Assembly (NCBI GenBank): GCA_007695035.1
Contig: REEO01000067.1
Coordinates: 62,001 to 126,000, forward strand
Direction: 5' to 3'
Length of the DNA: 64,000 bases
DNA from: Saprospirales bacterium
GTDB lineage: Bacteria > Bacteroidota > Bacteroidia > Chitinophagales > Saprospiraceae
Shown: positions 30,129 to 38,420 of the stretch, in pieces
Layout of the letters: each line of letters begins with the position of its first letter
Numbering within the stretch: the first letter of the stretch is position 1
Made by a program: the position numbers and the translations under genes
Notes under the pieces: model-generated
Databases searched by the model: none
What the model was told of the DNA's origin: nothing
Seen by the model: only the letters and a program-made list of their open reading frames with translations

Positions 30129-31250
30129 TCACTCAGCCAGTAGAAGAAATTCGTCCAGTATTTTAAGTGACACCCGCATGTTTTTGTGCTCTTGTTGAGA
30201 ATTCTCCGGTCTTGGATAAATCATCCTTCGATTGGCGTATCCCTTCCATTCCAGGCGGGTCGAATCTACCCCATTATCGACCAGGTAGTTGAAAATGGAC
30301 TTTGCCCGTTTTTCTGATAGTTCTTGAAGATTATGTGCTGATCTGATACCGGGTGGGAAGTTTACATGTCCCTGAATCTCAAATCGATAATCGGCGGCCT
30401 GGCTAATCATCATCAGCAGACGGGGAAGCTCGTACAGGCTTTCAAGGTACACTTTTGCAGTTCTGGGATAAAACAATATATCCCGAAAATCAAATTGGTT
30501 TCCAGCCTGTAGTTTTGTTGGGTGAATGACACCCAGTCCCGGGCCTGTGCGTGCAGGATTGAAAAAACGGGGTTCCATGTAGTGGTCTTTAGAGAAAAAC
30601 TCGAGAGAAAAATTTTCTCCTTTGGGAACAGGAATACAAAACACCCCTGTACCCTGCACCGCAAAGGTGTCCTGGTAGAACCGGGTGCCAATCAGAATTA
30701 CCCCCTTCATATCTCTCTCTTTTTCAGCTTCTGAAGAAAATCTTCCCGATATCATTTGTACAGGACGATACATGCCTGCTTGTACCTTAACAGAACGGTT
30801 GATCTTTCTTCCAGAAGCAGTTTGGTTGGAGGCCAAAGGGGTGTCTTCTCCATATACATATTCAATAAACTGTTTGTTTTCCACCCCTCTTTTCTCCAGT
30901 TCCTCCCTCGTGAAATCCAGCCGCCTTTGCGCGAGTCTCCTGTTATATTCAGGACTCCCTATGCTGTCTGTTCTGGCTTCCATCCTGACGCTGAATTCCG
31001 GGTGGTCCTCAAGGGCACTGAGAAGCTTTTTTATATCATTTTCCGGAAGGGTGTCGGTTTGATGGCGGTTGGTCTCAAAGTGTATGAGGAAGGTGTAGCT
31101 CTCGATAAACATGGTGTCACCGGTTGAATAGTAATTGGACTGCCCGGTAGCACTGGATGGTAAAACTATGGAGGCCATTAGTGCAAAAAAGCATAGTAAA
31201 GCCCTTAATTTCCAATTAATTTTGTTTCCATTACAATTTCGTGCTACCAT
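30129..31250 (-). CDS. double-OmpA-domain envelope protein (copy 1)
   Basis: A 373-residue exported protein with a signal peptide ending near residue 36 (...SATGQ). Two OmpA-like peptidoglycan-binding domains flank a central beta domain. The first (about 50-165) shows LIHFETNR, EARTDSIGSPEYNRRLAQRR and RGV; the second (about 255-370) shows FEIQGHVN, LSEKRAKSIFNYLVDNGVD, and NMRVSLKIL. The middle (VILIGTRFYQDTFAVQGTGVFCIPVPKG) looks like a carboxypeptidase-regulatory beta sandwich. It probably tethers the outer membrane or a complex to peptidoglycan. A paralogue of the same layout lies 100 bases upstream. Confidence 0.78.
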   Translation of the reverse strand: MVARNCNGNKINWKLRALLCFFALMASIVLPSSATGQSNYYSTGDTMFIESYTFLIHFETNRHQTDTLPENDIKKLLSALEDHPEFSVRMEARTDSIGSPEYNRRLAQRRLDFTREELEKRGVENKQFIEYVYGEDTPLASNQTASGRKINRSVKVQAGMYRPVQMISGRFSSEAEKERDMKGVILIGTRFYQDTFAVQGTGVFCIPVPKGENFSLEFFSKDHYMEPRFFNPARTGPGLGVIHPTKLQAGNQFDFRDILFYPRTAKVYLESLYELPRLLMMISQAADYRFEIQGHVNFPPGIRSAHNLQELSEKRAKSIFNYLVDNGVDSTRLEWKGYANRRMIYPRPENSQQEHKNMRVSLKILDEFLLLAE

Positions 31251-31350
31251 AGAATGATTGGGTTTTCCTGGTTTTTCGATTAAAAGCTAAGATAATAATT
31301 TTTGAAAATTTTGTCCTGGCGGCTTAGAACATTGCCCGGACCGGTTAGTC

Positions 31351-32502
31351 TCACTGATCATCCTCGATTTTACCGAGGACTTTCACAGTAACCCTTCTAT
31401 TGTATTTCATCTCATTTTCAGTCCTGGCTCTGGGGTATATCATTTTGGAATTTGAGTAAGCTTTCCACTCCAGCCGGGTAGAATCGATGTTGTTTTCAAT
31501 CAGGTAGTTGTACACTTTTCTGGCCCTTCGCTCTGACAGGTCGTAGTAAAATGTGCCCCGTGGTTGTGGGGGGCTGAACGGATTGTTGACATGGCCCTGT
31601 ATTTCGAACCGATAATTTGCAGCAAAGCGCACTGTCCTCAAGAGACGGGGGAGTGCATCCTGAAATCCCGGCATGAGTACAGCCTTGTTTGAAATGAACA
31701 GTATGTCTTCAAAATCAAAAGTGGCCCCAACTTCCAGCCTTTCAATCTCAACTTCTCCGAGTGTGGGGGCCTCACGGCCAAGATTGTGATAGGTTCGCTC
31801 CATGATGTGGTCCCCGGAGTAAAACTCCATGGAGAAAATTTCCCCTGCCGGTGCGATAAATGTAAATTTTCCCGTGCTGTCCGTAAATAAGGTGTCTCGA
31901 TGATAGCGGGAACCGATAATCATCATACCCTCAATACCGCCGTTTTCTCCATCCTTCGAAATTATGCTCCCTGTAATTTCTTGAAAGGGGGTTTGATATC
32001 CCGCTGCAACTTTTACCGATCGGTTTGTTTGCCTGCCCTCCCTGCTGATGTTCGGGGCGAGCGGCAAGTCCTCCCCGTACACGTTTTCAATAAACCGGTC
32101 ACCTTTAACCCCTCTTTGCTTCAATTCTCGTTTAGCAAACTCCATCCTGCGGGTTGCCAGGTCTTTGTTGTAGGTGTAATCGCCTACGCTGTCTGTTCTC
32201 GCCTCGAGTCGCACCTTTAAATTCGGGTTATCTTCTAAAACTTCTAACAGTCTATCAGTCTCCTCCTCCGGGAAGGCGCGGGTGTAATCCCAGTCCGTAT
32301 TGAAGAGAATTAGAAAGGATGTTTTTTCAAAAAGGACGGAATCTTCACTGACTGGAATGGGACTCTGAGCAGAGAGGTAACCGGCATTATCAGGCATCCA
32401 AAGGAAAAACAACAGCAGGGCCAAACAGCCCCAAGACCATTTTCTTAGTTGAGTTTGTATTGAGAAGTTATTGCGCATCCCTTTGTTTTTTGAAGTACGC
32501 AT
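31351..32502 (-). CDS. double-OmpA-domain envelope protein (copy 2)
   Basis: A 383-residue paralogue of the neighbouring gene with the same order: signal peptide (to about residue 45, ...AGYLSAQ), OmpA domain with EARTDSVGDYTYNKDLATRR, central beta-sandwich with FTFIAPAGEIFSMEFYSGDH, and second OmpA domain with FEIQGHVNNP and LSERRARKVYNYLIENNID. The ATG at 32502 is chosen over the TTG at 32517. The two genes have diverged well but are clearly a tandem duplication, transcribed in the same direction and probably together. The role in cell-wall anchoring is inferred from the OmpA domains. Confidence 0.78.
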   Translation of the reverse strand: MRTSKNKGMRNNFSIQTQLRKWSWGCLALLLFFLWMPDNAGYLSAQSPIPVSEDSVLFEKTSFLILFNTDWDYTRAFPEEETDRLLEVLEDNPNLKVRLEARTDSVGDYTYNKDLATRRMEFAKRELKQRGVKGDRFIENVYGEDLPLAPNISREGRQTNRSVKVAAGYQTPFQEITGSIISKDGENGGIEGMMIIGSRYHRDTLFTDSTGKFTFIAPAGEIFSMEFYSGDHIMERTYHNLGREAPTLGEVEIERLEVGATFDFEDILFISNKAVLMPGFQDALPRLLRTVRFAANYRFEIQGHVNNPFSPPQPRGTFYYDLSERRARKVYNYLIENNIDSTRLEWKAYSNSKMIYPRARTENEMKYNRRVTVKVLGKIEDDQ

Positions 32503-32751
32503 TGTTTTTGTGCTCAAGAACCCCCATGACTTAGAGAAACTTGAGAAACTCCGCTCGTGTTAGGGCGAGTTGCATGCAGGGTGTTTTGACTTTGCAACTC
32601 ATTTGTCGCTGACCCATGTTATGCTACGCTGGTACTTGTTTATTTAACGAAAACAGTAGGTCTGAGTATTTGTTTTTCCCAAAATACCTATCTTTACAAT
32701 TCTATGAGGATTTTTGGGTTAGTAATTTTATATGTTGAATAAAAGTAATAG

Positions 32752-34674
32752 ATGTTGAGTAGGTTTCTTGTGCAAACCAAGTTTTCCGATTCGTTGAAAA
32801 GTGGATATAGAGCTGGATTTAACCCTGTTAACCGGGAGAGTGGTTGTTTGGTAGATAAATATTTCAGTCGGGTTTTATGGGTGGTCTTTTTCACCCTTTT
32901 AATCCTGATGCAAGTCAGTGCGCAGTCCTTGCTTCAAAAGGATGAGTATTTTGCGCATGAGGGCTTTGAGGATGGAAAATATGTTGAATTGACTGGTGAT
33001 ATTTTGAGGGCTGATTTGCCTGAGCACTTCGTGGCTGCCAGTGTAATGCCTTTTTTGGAGTTCGAAGTCGAAATAATTTCTCTTGATGAAAAAAGTGCCA
33101 CTGTGGTATTTCTCATGGTTGAGACGGGAGGACAGGATCTCGAATTACTTTTGAATGTCGATTTTTTACATCCGGGAGAAAGTATCCACTATTATCGTAT
33201 TGGTAGTGAGAACTCCCAGGAATTTGAGAGAAGACAGACTCCTGTTTTTACAGAAAAGGAGCGCGGTAAATTGGTTGTGGAGTGGAATGGAAGCGCTGAT
33301 CGGGCAGAAGAAGTAGTGGAGGAGAATCCGTTGCGCAATGCATACCTGCACATTGGTTCCTACCGATCAAATGAAACGGGATTTGGAACTTCCCTGGAGT
33401 GCCATATCAATGTAACTTGCCCTGAGGGACTGAATTTTAACGAGGTGAGAGATGGTATTAACCGCATCCGGGTGGTGGTTGAAGAGGGTATTGGTCACTG
33501 CAGTGGAGCATTGATAAATAACACGGCAGAAGACCACACACCTTATTTGCTTACTGCCTACCACTGTATGGATGGTTTTACGCCCCTTTATGACATGTGG
33601 CGTTTTGATTTTTTCTACGAGTCTCTCAGCTGTTCTGATCCTTTGGATGAGCCTGATTTTTTTAGTCTGACAGGGGCAGAATTCAGGGCCGGTCATCCCG
33701 ATACGGATTTTTTACTACTGGAGTTGACCGCAGACTTTCCCGGAGATTTTGAGGTGCCATTTCTTGGCTGGGATCGCCGGGAGCATTATATGCCTCAGAA
33801 CACGGCACTTATTCATCACCCATCTGCCGATATTAAAAAAGTGTCCCTCTACAGTTCATCCCTGCGGGTGCATCCCAATAGGATAAACTGGAATAATGGA
33901 GTGACTACGCCCGTTCATTCTCACTACCGACAAGACCTCACTTCAGGTACTTTTGAACCCGGTTCCTCTGGAAGTCCGCTCTTGTCCCCAGAGGGTAGAA
34001 TTATGGGACAGTTGCACGGGGGAAATCCCTCATGCTCCACCTTTTTAGCTTACAGTGGCATACTTTACTATAGTTGGGACCTGGGAGACGATTCCTCAGA
34101 GCGATTAAGAGACTGGTTGGACCCATTAAATACCGGACAGTTGACACTGGATCACAACTTGAGAGAGGAAGCTTTTGATGAGTTTATTGTCCACGGTACA
34201 GTCAGAACCCCTGTGGATATGCCTGTGGGCATGGTAGAGGTGGTGCTTGAATGTGGCGAGGAGAGTTGGGAAACGATCACTGGAGCTGATGGCTTATTTG
34301 AGATTGAAGTATCCCTTCCTGCTGGTGAGGTAGAAGCCTGCCAACTCTCATTTCGCAAGAATACCCATCCGAGGAATGGGGTCAATGTCCTGGATGTGGC
34401 TGCAATGCGGAGACATATCCTGAATATTGAATCGCTGGAAGGCTACTCTTTTCAGGCTGCGGATTTAAATGGCGACGGGCTTGTAAATATTTTGGATATT
34501 CTAATAATGCAAAGGTTGATACTCCAAATCATTAACCAGTTCCCCGATTCCGATTCCTGGAAAATGTTGCCGGACGCACTCAATTTTGACCTGAATGGCA
34601 ATCCCGGTTATTTCTTTGAGATAACCGGCTTGAAAATGGGGGACGTGGATTTTTCTGCCAATCCCTCCAATTGA
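32752..34674 (+). CDS. secreted trypsin-like (S1) protease with C-terminal dockerin-like repeats
   Basis: A 640-residue secreted protein resembling lysyl endopeptidase-type proteases. A long N-terminal leader ends in a signal helix (about 40-58, ...MQVSAQ). The catalytic triad is visible: H271 in LTAYHC, D317 or D319 in HPDTDFLLLEL, and S406 in PGSSGSP. The Cys residues around them fit disulfides. After the protease comes a carboxypeptidase-regulatory-like beta domain (about 475-540) and two EF-hand-like dockerin repeats (VNVLDVAAMRRHILN and DLNGDGLVNILDILIMQRLIL). No usual T9SS signal is obvious. The first 40 residues before the signal helix are unusual, and the true start may be later. Confidence 0.82.
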   Translation: MLSRFLVQTKFSDSLKSGYRAGFNPVNRESGCLVDKYFSRVLWVVFFTLLILMQVSAQSLLQKDEYFAHEGFEDGKYVELTGDILRADLPEHFVAASVMPFLEFEVEIISLDEKSATVVFLMVETGGQDLELLLNVDFLHPGESIHYYRIGSENSQEFERRQTPVFTEKERGKLVVEWNGSADRAEEVVEENPLRNAYLHIGSYRSNETGFGTSLECHINVTCPEGLNFNEVRDGINRIRVVVEEGIGHCSGALINNTAEDHTPYLLTAYHCMDGFTPLYDMWRFDFFYESLSCSDPLDEPDFFSLTGAEFRAGHPDTDFLLLELTADFPGDFEVPFLGWDRREHYMPQNTALIHHPSADIKKVSLYSSSLRVHPNRINWNNGVTTPVHSHYRQDLTSGTFEPGSSGSPLLSPEGRIMGQLHGGNPSCSTFLAYSGILYYSWDLGDDSSERLRDWLDPLNTGQLTLDHNLREEAFDEFIVHGTVRTPVDMPVGMVEVVLECGEESWETITGADGLFEIEVSLPAGEVEACQLSFRKNTHPRNGVNVLDVAAMRRHILNIESLEGYSFQAADLNGDGLVNILDILIMQRLILQIINQFPDSDSWKMLPDALNFDLNGNPGYFFEITGLKMGDVDFSANPSN

Positions 34675-34927: not shown

Positions 34928-36004
34928 ATGCTGAAACGAAAGAGGTACACCATTTTTCTCGTCTTGTTTATTGGTGGTTTATTTGCTGCCCTGTACTGGA
35001 TTCCTCATGAATTTCCCTACAGTATAAGAACCAAGGCGCTGATTCAGCCGGTTCAGGAGTGGGAGTTGAGCCGACTGCCGGATGGGAGTTTGTCGTCACT
35101 TATAAGAAACCAACTCACCGGCTCCATTGATTCTTATGGCGTCACGGAATTCAGGCGGGGGGATGTGGTTAGTTTTAACCTCAGACCGGAGATCTATCGC
35201 AAGGGTTATGTCGCCGAGGGAGATACCATTGGTTTCCTGTACTCAAATGATGAGCAGGTTCGCATTGCAGAGCTAAGGGGCCAGGTGGATGTGCTCAGGG
35301 CTGAATTACAGTACTACATGACCGGGCAAAAAGCAGAGGATGTGAGAAGGGCTGAACGAGAGATAGAGCTCGCCCTGGAGAGAGTAGAAAATCAACGCCG
35401 CATTCTCGATCGCTCGAGAATGTTAATGGTTGATTCCCTTATTTCTGTACAGCAATTGGAGATCGATGAACACGATTTGGAGATGAGGAAAAAGGAAGTA
35501 GAGCTGGCCGAAGCCCGTTTGGAAATTGTGACCTCGGGAGACAAACCGGAGCAAATTGAACTCATCAGGACTCGCAAGGCAGCTTTAAAAGATCGAATAA
35601 GCCAGTTAGAGGGACGCATGGAGCAATTAATCCTGTTGGCTCCTATAGATGGGAAGGTCGTGTTGGACCGGAATTATATGAGGCGGGACGTATTGGTGCG
35701 GGTTGTTGACACCACTGCCTTTGTCGGAGTGGCTCCAGTCCTCTTGAGAGACAGAAATTATGTTCAGGCAGGTCAACCGGTGAGGATGAGGCATCAGACG
35801 CATGGGTTTTCTGCAGAGGGTACGGTTTATGATTTTAACAATGTAGCAGAGGTGTTGAATGGTGAGCCGGTGGTTTTCATCACAACCTGGTTCAAAAGCA
35901 ATCCAAACTCCATGTTGCCCGGAAAAATGGTTGAAATAGAAGTGGAGGGAGTTGGCCTCCGTCCCTGGGATTACGCGCTTAAGTTGTTCCAATCCCCGAT
36001 GTAA
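34928..36004 (+). CDS. HlyD family periplasmic adaptor (membrane fusion protein)
   Basis: A 358-residue protein anchored by one N-terminal helix (about 8-24). A lipoyl/barrel-sandwich half motif (TEFRRGDVVSFN...YVAEGDTIGFL) precedes a long coiled coil at about 110-220 (RAEREIELALERVENQRRIL, ELAEARLEIV). It closes with the second lipoyl half (LLAPIDGKVVLDRN) and a beta-barrel. Such adaptors bridge inner-membrane transporters to the outer membrane. No transporter is adjacent. Instead VTC and DUF4956 genes follow, the first starting two bases after this stop, so it probably works with them. Confidence 0.85.
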   Translation: MLKRKRYTIFLVLFIGGLFAALYWIPHEFPYSIRTKALIQPVQEWELSRLPDGSLSSLIRNQLTGSIDSYGVTEFRRGDVVSFNLRPEIYRKGYVAEGDTIGFLYSNDEQVRIAELRGQVDVLRAELQYYMTGQKAEDVRRAEREIELALERVENQRRILDRSRMLMVDSLISVQQLEIDEHDLEMRKKEVELAEARLEIVTSGDKPEQIELIRTRKAALKDRISQLEGRMEQLILLAPIDGKVVLDRNYMRRDVLVRVVDTTAFVGVAPVLLRDRNYVQAGQPVRMRHQTHGFSAEGTVYDFNNVAEVLNGEPVVFITTWFKSNPNSMLPGKMVEIEVEGVGLRPWDYALKLFQSPM

Positions 36005-36006
36005 GT

Positions 36007-36738
36007 ATGGCATACAAACTTCGCTACGAGAGAAAATACCTGGTCCCTAACCATCTTATAGACGATGTAAGGGAGGCGCTCAGCCCCTTTTTGAGGCCTG
36101 ATGTGTACGCCGGAAGGGTGGATGGCAGACCCCAATACACCGTGCGATCCATTTATTTTGACAGCATACATCGCCATGCAGTTTTTGAAAAAATTGAGGG
36201 CCTGCGCGACCGGAAAAAACTGAGGATAAGGGGCTACAACACCAGAGAAGATGACAGTTTAGTCATTGCAGAGATAAAGAGAAAGATATCCAATCGGATA
36301 TGCAAAAACCGCGCTCCATTTCGCTACAACGACATACAGCATGTAATTGAAACCGGTGATTACGAGCCCTTTTTGCTCAAAAATAATCAACAGTCCAGAG
36401 ACGATGCAGCAAGATTTTTGTACAATCTCAAGCGTTTTCACATGGAGCCGGTGAATCTGATAGTATATCACAGGGAACCTTACCACGGCGTTTTCAATCC
36501 CGATACCCGCATCACCTTCGACAAAGACATTAGGTCCCGCATCTATCCCCATGTCACAGAGTTGTTTGAAAATGTGGATTTTGTCTATCCGTGGGCCGGT
36601 CATTTTATCATGGAGATAAAGTATTTTGACCCTCCGATGCCATCCTGGGCCAAGGCCGTGGTCTGGGAGTTTGATCTGAAGGCAGAGGCACTTTCCAAGT
36701 ACGTGGAGGGATTCAGGTGCCATCCATTGGCATATTAA
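36007..36738 (+). CDS. VTC-domain protein (polyphosphate polymerase-like)
   Basis: A 243-residue VTC domain, the fold of the yeast vacuolar polyphosphate polymerase and of triphosphate tunnel enzymes. Basic and acidic residues lining the tunnel are visible in order: RYERKYLV, RSIYFDS, KKLRIRGY, IAEIKRK, YNLKRF, ITFDKDI and IMEIKY. Bacterial VTC proteins are encoded with DUF4956 membrane proteins and sometimes CotH kinases. Polyphosphate synthesis is the family's known activity, but it has not been shown for this type as far as I know. It starts two bases after the HlyD gene and ends 19 bases before the DUF4956 gene. Confidence 0.88.
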   Translation: MAYKLRYERKYLVPNHLIDDVREALSPFLRPDVYAGRVDGRPQYTVRSIYFDSIHRHAVFEKIEGLRDRKKLRIRGYNTREDDSLVIAEIKRKISNRICKNRAPFRYNDIQHVIETGDYEPFLLKNNQQSRDDAARFLYNLKRFHMEPVNLIVYHREPYHGVFNPDTRITFDKDIRSRIYPHVTELFENVDFVYPWAGHFIMEIKYFDPPMPSWAKAVVWEFDLKAEALSKYVEGFRCHPLAY

Positions 36739-36757
36739 AATTGATAGCAAAGACTTT

Positions 36758-37432
36758 ATGGAAGAGCAACTTGAAAATATTTTCATATTCAGAATTACAC
36801 CGGCGGAAGCTCTCACTAATCTGGCGGTAGCCCTGATTTGCGGCATTTTGATCAGTCTGTTTTACAGGGTGACCTACAAAGGCGTGAGTTATTCGTCTCA
36901 CTATGTAATCTCAATAATCATGCTCGCAATGATCACCGCACTGGTAATTATGGTCATTGGAAACAATCTGGCCCGGGCTTTTGGTCTGGTGGGGGCGATG
37001 TCCATTATTCGATTCCGTACAGCCGTTAAAGACACCCAGGACATCATGTATATTTTCTTTGCTCTCGCTGCCGGACTTGCTTGCGGTGCGGGTATGTACG
37101 CCATTGCGGTGACCGGGACTTTGTTCATCGGCTTTTCCCTCATGATCGCCTCTGCTGTGTACGCCGAAAACCCGGCGAAGAGAGAATACCTCCTGCAAAT
37201 TGTGCATCTCGGTTCAAAGGTGGAAAAAGGACTCTTCAACCGAACCATCGAGAAGTATGTGACCAGGTACAATCTGGTGAATGTAAAAAATCTGACAGAT
37301 GACCGGGGTGACATAATGGAGTTTTCTTACTACATCATGCTAAAAAAAGATTCCCGGGCTCCGAAATTACTCGCTGAACTCAGGGAAATACCCAATGTAG
37401 ACAAAGTAAATCTGTTTTTCGATGAAGAGTGA
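36758..37432 (+). CDS. DUF4956 membrane protein
   Basis: A 224-residue inner-membrane protein of the DUF4956 family. It has four membrane helices in the first ~140 residues and a conserved GLVGAMSIIRFRTAVKDTQD segment between helices two and three. The C-terminal ~80 residues form a cytoplasmic ferredoxin-like domain (YNLVNVKNL...IMEFSYYIMLKK). Members nearly always accompany VTC-domain proteins, suggesting the pair works as a polymer-making and -exporting unit. The last 11 bases overlap the start of the next lipoprotein gene. Confidence 0.9.
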   Translation: MEEQLENIFIFRITPAEALTNLAVALICGILISLFYRVTYKGVSYSSHYVISIIMLAMITALVIMVIGNNLARAFGLVGAMSIIRFRTAVKDTQDIMYIFFALAAGLACGAGMYAIAVTGTLFIGFSLMIASAVYAENPAKREYLLQIVHLGSKVEKGLFNRTIEKYVTRYNLVNVKNLTDDRGDIMEFSYYIMLKKDSRAPKLLAELREIPNVDKVNLFFDEE

Positions 37433-38420
37433 TCTGTGGAGCTTTTTTGGAAGTTGTTTTTGGAGGTCTTCGTTGCAGTTGGCTTCCTGTCTGTTTTTTG
37501 TTTCGTTCCTGTGTAGCAGTTGCGGCGATACTTCAGCACCTGAGTGTGCTGATCCATCAGCAATTAACTTCAACGCTGATGCCATTGGATTCTCGGACTG
37601 TGAATTTGACGAACATACCGCTGATCCCGAATGGTTGACGTTTCTTGATCAGGCAGTTGAAGAGACGTCAGGCCTTGCCATTGTGAACGATCGCTTGATA
37701 ACACATAACGACCGTGGCCACAGCAATGAACTCTTTGTAGTTGATCCCGAAACTGGTCTGGTCTTGAACACATTTGAGGTTGTCGGAGCTGAAAATGAGG
37801 ACTGGGAAGACCTGGCTCAAAGCGATGAAATTCTTTTCGTAGGTGATATGGGAAACAATCCCGGAGACCGGAAGAATCTGCGGATATATATGGTGAAGAA
37901 GTCCGACTTTGATTTTGGAACTGAAACCGGAGAAGTTACCATCTCGGGGCTGATAGAATTTTACTACCCGGAACAGGAAGTTTTTGAAGCCAACAATAAT
38001 CACAACTGGGATTGCGAAGCCCTGATCTACCGGGAGGGCTATTTATATCTCTTTATGAAGCACCGAAAGGACCCCTTGAGCAATTTATACAGAATACCCG
38101 CTGAAGAAGGCTCCCACACCGCTCAATTATTGGCCTACTTCAACGCCGGCCATAGGATCACGGGTGGTGATATATCCCCCGATGGAAACCAAATTGCTCT
38201 AGTAGGCTACAACAAGGATGACAATTGTGTGGTTTGGTTGCTGGATGGCTTTGGAGATGGTCACCCACTTTCAGGTTCAAAAAGAATGTTCACTCTCGGT
38301 TCTTTTTCTGCCCTTGGTCAAATTGAGGCAATCGTCTATACAAATGACAGCACCTTTTATATCTCAGCCGAAGAAGTAGATGGCATCCCACCCAGGTTGT
38401 ACAGACTGGAACTTCCCTAA
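37422..38420 (+). CDS. lipoprotein, probable beta-propeller
   Basis: A 332-residue lipoprotein with a lipobox (FLCSSC, Cys about residue 34) and a short Cys/Asp/Asn-rich linker. The body shows repeated strands of beta-propeller style: SGLAIVNDRLITHNDRG, LFVVDPETGLVL, EDLAQSDEILFVGDMGNN, CEALIYREGYLYLFMKH, ITGGDISPDGNQIALVGY and QIEAIVYTNDSTFYISAEE. This resembles phytase- or SdiA-regulated-type propellers. Its ATG overlaps the DUF4956 stop by 11 bases, so it belongs to the HlyD-VTC-DUF4956 operon, possibly as a surface or periplasmic partner. Function is not recognised. Confidence 0.72.
   Translation: MKSDLWSFFGSCFWRSSLQLASCLFFVSFLCSSCGDTSAPECADPSAINFNADAIGFSDCEFDEHTADPEWLTFLDQAVEETSGLAIVNDRLITHNDRGHSNELFVVDPETGLVLNTFEVVGAENEDWEDLAQSDEILFVGDMGNNPGDRKNLRIYMVKKSDFDFGTETGEVTISGLIEFYYPEQEVFEANNNHNWDCEALIYREGYLYLFMKHRKDPLSNLYRIPAEEGSHTAQLLAYFNAGHRITGGDISPDGNQIALVGYNKDDNCVVWLLDGFGDGHPLSGSKRMFTLGSFSALGQIEAIVYTNDSTFYISAEEVDGIPPRLYRLELP

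Follow-up and report, generated by a model that had tools for sequence, protein, structure and literature searches.

What might a VTC-domain protein, a relative of the yeast polyphosphate polymerase Vtc4, contribute to an operon that starts with a periplasmic adaptor? The question is raised by four consecutive genes in a 64,000-nucleotide stretch of a Saprospirales genome (contig REEO01000067.1; hereafter the window), which encode an HlyD-type adaptor, a VTC-domain protein, a DUF4956 membrane protein and a lipoprotein (for an overview see Table 1). The four open reading frames are co-directional, with 2 bp between HlyD and VTC, 19 bp between VTC and DUF4956 and an overlap of 11 bp between DUF4956 and the lipoprotein gene, in agreement with a first-pass annotation of the same DNA which had described them as a tight operon with a 2-bp gap and an 11-bp overlap. 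The comparison of related loci demonstrated that the first three genes form a conserved cassette that occurs across several bacterial phyla. Tentatively, we propose that this cassette may be a trans-envelope synthase and exporter of a phosphate polymer.

The conservation of the gene order was determined with DUF4956 as the anchor, as in this way the presence of HlyD is not presupposed. A scan of genome contigs with an alignment of window-type DUF4956 proteins yielded 386 stretches, of which 324 were relatives, and the best 80, i.e., the most window-like loci, were analyzed. VTC was located directly upstream of DUF4956 in all 80 loci and was itself immediately preceded by HlyD in all 79 loci with sufficient contig, the 80th (L091) starting inside VTC. 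The gene order of four loci (L091, L105, L127 and L155) was completed by tblastn, which also recovered VTC or DUF4956 in L174. Among 73 named loci, the gap between HlyD and VTC had a median of 3 bp and did not exceed 20 bp in 69, and the median gap between VTC and DUF4956 was 12 bp; this tight spacing is not due to chance. Judged by the record titles, the loci belong to Bacteroidota (Saprospirales, Bacteroidales, Flavobacteriales and others), Melioribacteraceae/Ignavibacteriales, ‘Candidatus Chrysopegis’, Calditrichaeota (L163; Calditrichota) and Latescibacterota (L162). An apparent fusion of the HlyD and VTC genes on a GC-rich contig (L183) was rejected, as tblastn gave separate frames.

A similar picture emerged among the closer relatives of the window. 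DUF4956 was found in 42 of 60 relatives, and the order HlyD-VTC-DUF4956 was present in the window and at 11 relative loci (L021, L032-L037, L039, L069, L071 and L077), including L033, which starts just before DUF4956. In the reverse direction, 148 genomes of the phylum with a completeness of at least 90% were searched with a profile built from the adaptors of the cassette. Full-length members of the adaptor family (at least 127 bits) occurred in 13 of these genomes at 14 loci; the next match was partial (109.5 bits) and was followed by generic adaptors. All 14 loci (12 fetched ones, the window and L069) continue into VTC and DUF4956. Thus, in nearly all cases examined, the adaptor family of the cassette predicts the VTC-DUF4956 pair and vice versa. 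The conservation of the four-gene order in close relatives, which the first-pass annotation had named as a test of the grouping, was confirmed for HlyD, with a single exception among the relatives (L054, see below), and failed for the lipoprotein, which adjoins the cassette in 16 of the 80 loci and in eight of 12 cassette genomes (the window and its relatives).

The VTC protein matched PF09359 (E 1.2e-31, 110.5 bits against a curated cut-off of 23) as its sole Pfam domain, and neither an SPX nor a membrane domain was found by this search. A search of the PDB with the single sequence gave no useful match; however, a profile of the HlyD-linked VTCs matched yeast Vtc4 (3g3q, E 2.8e-9). In the alignment to 3g3q, K10, R73, R75, K91 and E203 of the window protein correspond to K200, R264, R266, K281 and E426 of Vtc4. 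By motif, we further take R156, R168 and K231 to be the counterparts of Vtc4 R361, R373 and K458; all eight Vtc4 residues are tunnel positions. All eight window residues were invariant in 124 of 124 VTC rows from all gene contexts, a set that includes duplicate copies of some contigs. In yeast, R264A/R266A/E426N is the catalytically impaired Vtc4 mutant of a cryo-EM study (PMC9911596). Two further residues, R47 (window positions 36145-36147) and K62 (36190-36192), constitute a signature of the HlyD-linked clade that is nearly absent from the other VTCs of the order: both occurred in all 98 HlyD-linked rows, but in only two and one, respectively, of the remaining 26. The window’s genome encodes one VTC and one DUF4956 protein and also PPK1; therefore, a role of VTC in storage alone would be redundant, and VTC is not the only candidate polyphosphate synthase of this organism.

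DUF4956 matched PF16316 (E 3.9e-16). Its match to MgtC (PF02308) reached 20.1 bits, below the cut-off of 31.4 (E 8.7e-4), and a match to the MgtC/SapB family was also weak, so that membership in the MgtC family was rejected; for the homologue in Streptococcus intermedius, a similarity to MgtC and an ACT domain have been reported (PMC12345266). A model based on a 34-sequence alignment comprised five membrane-length helices, followed by a C-terminal domain of the order beta-alpha-beta-beta-alpha-beta that is similar to ribosomal S6 and to ACT domains. The predicted topology, with which the positive charges are consistent, places the N-terminus in the periplasm and the C-terminal domain in the cytoplasm. 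The stretch GNNLARAFGLVGAMSIIRFRT was almost invariant in the same alignment. Its arginines could line the entry of a polyanion; R73, R85, R87 and K91 of DUF4956 would lie towards the predicted cytoplasmic mouth.

The adaptor itself had no Pfam match at E 0.01, and its NCBIfam matches (PRK03598 ‘secretion protein HlyD’ with E 6.3e-10, and others) all remained under the curated cut-offs. The orthologue at L077, however, exceeded the cut-off of HlyD_3 (PF13437) with 26.8 versus 22.2 bits. TolC-binding adaptors carry the RLS motif Rx3Lx6S, in which the serine is a permissive position (PMC3391258), and the window adaptor possesses the corresponding residues R162, L166 and S173. Across the 80 adaptors, R162 was present in all, L166 in 75 (methionine in the other five) and serine or threonine at position 173 in 53, and the exact pattern Rx3Lx6[ST] occurred in 49 of the 80 compared to 6% in shuffled sequence. 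A suitable channel is encoded next to the cassette in some species: a gene of the OEP (TolC) family directly follows DUF4956 in seven of the 80 loci (L099, L104, L109, L119, L129, L134 and L148) and likewise at L077 (PF02321, E 2.7e-29), bearing out the earlier suggestion that an outer-membrane channel might co-occur. Eight OEP genes elsewhere in the window’s genome are available as partners of its adaptor. With the HlyD-type adaptor, its RLS residues and the TolC-family channel of some operons, the cassette resembles type I secretion and tripartite efflux systems. These systems contain an ABC, RND or MFS transporter, no gene for which is present in the window cassette; here, DUF4956, together with VTC, takes that position.

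The lipoprotein, by contrast with the three cassette proteins, has to be regarded as accessory, as it adjoins the cassette in so few loci: 10 times directly after DUF4956, four times after OEP and twice before HlyD (a weak match on the opposite strand in L165 was left out). The broader family occurred in 36 of the 60 relatives, mostly away from the cassette, and no match was obtained in two cassette genomes of the same genus (G005 and G007). A function as core part was therefore rejected. The protein had no Pfam match above cut-off, and PDB sequence searches gave no useful match. Its AlphaFold2 model (mean predicted local distance difference test score, pLDDT, 89) was an all-beta structure, a beta-propeller, as the first-pass label had it, and was closest to Escherichia coli YjiK (3qqz; Z 20.5 over 226 residues, root-mean-square deviation 3.3) and to the glutaminyl cyclase 3nok (Z 20.5). 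As both tie in Z, the fold does not settle the function. The similarity to YjiK/SdiA-regulated propellers (PF06977) is thus one of fold; a protein of this family, SdiA-regulated/phytase-like (PF06977, E 5.8e-21), adjoins the cassette in L163. A phytase identity of the window lipoprotein is not claimed, since its match to PF13449 was sub-threshold (E 0.1). Cys34 is nearly invariant among the homologues, those of L069 and L071 are longer, and one of eight aligned homologues carries a sorting domain of the type IX secretion system (T9SS; Por_Secre_tail, E 3.3e-6), which suggests a location at the surface.

How might these proteins work together? VTC would act on the cytoplasmic face, using a nucleotide to build a chain of polyphosphate or of a phosphate polymer much like it, and would pass the chain to DUF4956, whose transmembrane helices would stand in for the membrane-spanning portion of the eukaryotic VTC complex. 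From its anchor in the inner membrane, HlyD would bridge DUF4956 to a TolC-type outer-membrane channel. In some species, the gene for this channel would belong to the operon; in others, including that of the window, it would lie elsewhere in the genome. The polymer would then reach the cell surface, where the propeller lipoprotein, secreted CotH kinases or both may act on or with it. The cassette shares the catalytic domain family, the tunnel residues and the pairing of a polymerase with a membrane part with the eukaryotic VTC complex (yeast Vtc1/Vtc3/Vtc4; PDB 7ytj, 8i6v). In contrast to the latter, which has SPX and a C-terminal membrane domain on the same chain, neither was found on the window VTC; the membrane part is DUF4956, which has no known kinship to that of the VTC complex, and the cassette also comprises an adaptor to the outer membrane. 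The anatomy, i.e., the cassette, the OEP genes and the linkage to CotH described below, argues well for the trans-envelope machine proposed by the first-pass annotation. With regard to its proposed product, we infer polyphosphate from the intact VTC residues only; the direction, the energy source and the direct contacts are likewise inferred.

Several observations weigh against this proposal. One locus among the relatives, L054, has a window-like VTC-DUF4956 pair without HlyD. The serine position of the RLS motif is occupied by alanine in 16 and by proline in 11 of the 80 adaptors (27 in total). The window operon is without an OEP gene of its own, and none was found directly downstream in 73 of the 80 loci. 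The DUF4956 model is of only moderate confidence (pLDDT 71.6). In addition, we found no account of polymerase activity of a bacterial VTC in the literature searched, and deletion of the VTC homologue SIR_1593 in S. intermedius left Pel and aggregation intact (PMC12345266). Finally, at 11 loci of the same family or order (L041, L042, L045, L047, L049, L051, L052, L064, L065, L067 and L076) DUF4956 precedes another HlyD and an OEP-like protein with no VTC nearby, L067 ending before the OEP-like gene, which indicates that the cargo need not be the product of VTC. Due to the HlyD-less L054, the loci without OEP or without VTC and the missing aggregation phenotype of SIR_1593, our confidence in the synthase-exporter stays on the tentative side.

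The VTC-less loci bear on the question in two ways, as this second type of DUF4956 beside HlyD and an OEP-like gene was also counted as support for a trans-envelope function. Their adaptors align with those of the cassette by profile over 216 columns (E 1.6e-11), and PF02321 was matched by two of 10 of their OEP-like proteins. At two of them (L041:347-5706 and L045:2414-8350), CotH, DUF4956, HlyD and the OEP-like gene stand side by side, with CotH at either end. In this second system, DUF4956 may act with HlyD-TolC on a different cargo. In a third context, DUF4956 precedes a protein of ~1000 aa, often followed by a short VTC; in the one such protein scanned, the CotH match lay exactly at the cut-off. 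At L072 (2680-6474), L048 and L053, the order is DUF4956, a protein of another triphosphate-tunnel family (CYTH), the CotH-like protein and VTC, so that two tunnel-fold proteins occur per operon (CYTH match E 9.3e-7 in L072). A fourth context has the order lipoprotein-VTC-DUF4956-DUF2490 barrel; in Bacteroides thetaiotaomicron, the DUF4956-DUF2490 pair BT3498-99 is listed in an iron-response table (PMC10434189). The common theme across these contexts is DUF4956 with envelope or surface partners.

The CotH genes raise the possibility that polyphosphate, or activated phosphate, is exported mainly as a phosphoryl donor, with which CotH would phosphorylate surface proteins where ATP is absent. CotH kinase genes, whose co-occurrence the first-pass annotation had anticipated, are located no more than five genes away from DUF4956 in 21 of the 80 loci; among those on the same strand, 13 are directly downstream of DUF4956 and five directly upstream of HlyD. 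At the highest CotH density among the relatives (22 per genome), the probability of such linkage by chance is 1e-8, relatedness being ignored. In the genomes of L108, L154 and L162, three of the 12 cassette genomes searched, every CotH found adjoins the cassette by coordinates. The same family contains loci with the order DUF4956-CotH-VTC and others with CotH-DUF4956-HlyD-OEP. T9SS sorting domains are present in the CotH proteins of L107, L108 and L045, the first two of which also show lamin-tail and CotH domains. All 12 cassette genomes have CotH; however, so do 50 of the 60 relatives regardless of the cassette, so that this alone says little. Moreover, the sole CotH gene of the window’s genome is located on another contig, and neither the abstracts of the papers found on both CotH and polyphosphate nor the passages of PMC12345266 show a CotH that uses polyphosphate. 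A role mainly as donor for CotH is, in our estimation, unlikely.

A further explanation is a role of the cassette in modifying another surface polymer or in assisting its secretion, with VTC providing phosphate substituents rather than a free chain. Precedent comes from Gram-positive bacteria, where VTC, DUF4956 and CotH are accessory genes of Pel clusters (PMC7112168). The cassette shares with the set SIR_1592-1594 of S. intermedius (PMC12345266, PMC7112168) the direct neighborhood of VTC and DUF4956 (there termed MgtC plus ACT) and, in part of the loci, a nearby CotH. Deletion of the DUF4956 homologue SIR_1592 altered the amount of Pel and lowered aggregation (PMC12345266). The cassette differs from that set by HlyD in front of VTC and TolC in some cases; CotH stands beside VTC-DUF4956 in the Pel set and away from it in the window’s genome. 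PelG, the one Pel gene searched, was found in none of the 12 cassette genomes including the window’s, upon which a Pel accessory function was rejected, and no polysaccharide synthase is evident among the cassette neighbors, most of which lack identification. We regard this explanation as quite improbable. According to PMC12345266, a search for the synteny of CotH, VTC and DUF4956 away from Pel loci found none; in contrast, the three are neighbors here in genomes such as those of L108 and L162, for which the PelG search gave no match.

Equally doubtful appears a scenario in which DUF4956-HlyD-TolC exports a small molecule or an ion in an MgtC-like manner and VTC serves as a regulating sensor of nucleotide or polyphosphate instead of a polymerase. 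The weak MgtC and MgtC/SapB matches, the ACT-like domain and the 11 VTC-less loci are in line with it. A sensor, however, does not need residues whose loss impairs catalysis in Vtc4, and the conservation of all eight polymerase-tunnel residues in every VTC row counts against it. The most far-reaching version is a secretion system of Gram-negative bacteria dedicated to polyphosphate, in which the chain is synthesized by VTC, threaded by DUF4956 and exported in one step by HlyD-TolC, surface CotH uses it as phosphate donor for surface proteins, and the exported polyanion also aids life at the high pH of soda lakes, the habitat of many carriers; this version is very unlikely to hold in full. An anti-phage defense role was rejected, as the PADLOC profiles gave no match for any of the four proteins.

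A link of the cassette to haloalkaline life is possible. Forty of the 80 loci come from records with the prefixes CSSed, CSBr16 and T3Sed10, used by the Kulunda soda-lake projects (PMC6146748, PMC6704655; 871 and 1032 metagenome-assembled genomes), the soda-lake origin thus resting on prefixes. The Kulunda genomes make up at most ~2% of the 84,980 genomes, corresponding to 1.8 expected loci among 80. If all of them are counted as Bacteroidota and Bacteroidota are assumed to form one tenth of the collection, 18 would be expected (P 6e-8); this statistic ignores relatedness, and the ranking of the loci favors the window’s kin. Five further prefixes (PLM2, DLM2, GEM2) we take to denote Canadian soda-lake mats, and several cultured carriers (Alkaliflexus, Alkalitalea, Natronoflexus, Belliella buryatensis and Lunatimonas lonarensis) are alkaliphiles.

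As far as our literature search showed, VTC-DUF4956 pairs recur in bacteria without an established role. The combination with CotH is already known from the Gram-positive Pel clusters; the HlyD/TolC-linked form is apparently undescribed, as no published account was found by a search whose scope excluded most subscription journals and preprints. This form ties VTC-DUF4956 to the outer membrane and provides a clearly delimited unit of three genes, with a partner in the outer membrane and kinases encoded nearby. As cultured environmental Belliella, Alkaliflexus, Alkalitalea and Natronoflexus are among the carriers, it is directly testable whether a bacterial VTC makes polyphosphate and where the product goes. 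If export holds true, the cassette would offer polyphosphate a way across both membranes and might supply the energy for extracellular protein phosphorylation.

Table 1. Features of the cassette and the adjoining lipoprotein gene in the window
Feature	Positions	Strand	Basis and remarks
HlyD-type periplasmic adaptor (membrane-fusion protein), 358 aa	34928..36004	+	Cassette core; NCBIfam HlyD-type matches, orthologue L077, conserved position
Putative TolC-binding RLS motif Rx3Lx6S, adaptor residues 162-173	35411..35446	+	Conservation over 80 adaptors; motif definition from PMC3391258
VTC-domain (triphosphate-tunnel) polyphosphate polymerase-like protein, 243 aa, no SPX domain	36007..36738	+	PF09359, Vtc4 3g3q profile match
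DUF4956 inner-membrane protein, 224 aa, five predicted membrane helices and C-terminal ACT/ferredoxin-like domain	36758..37432	+	PF16316, model
Near-invariant DUF4956 stretch GNNLARAFGLVGAMSIIRFRTAVKD, residues 68-92	36959..37033	+	34-sequence alignment; predicted topology from model and charges
Beta-propeller lipoprotein (YjiK/SdiA-regulated-like fold), 332 aa, accessory	37422..38420	+	AlphaFold2 model, fold matches

Upstream of the cassette, the window encodes a secreted protein (32752-34674) with a trypsin-like domain (E 1e-5, just under cut-off) and a dockerin-like domain (E 7.8e-9), and on the minus strand two tandem OmpA-type genes of similar design (30129-32517; 373 and 388 aa). The gene for the trypsin/dockerin-like protein is also located 5' of the cassette in some members of the genus (L034, L035), and OmpA-type genes stand beside the cassette in some relatives (L032, L034, L035). 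Both were dropped as cassette parts, homologues of the protease occurring in five loci of the neighborhood set including the window. At L111, L112, L114, L116, L121, L123-L125, L135, L140 and L157, the gene just 5' of the cassette, with one small open reading frame intervening in L135, encodes a small membrane protein that contains a heavy-metal-associated domain (PF00403, as matched in L111).

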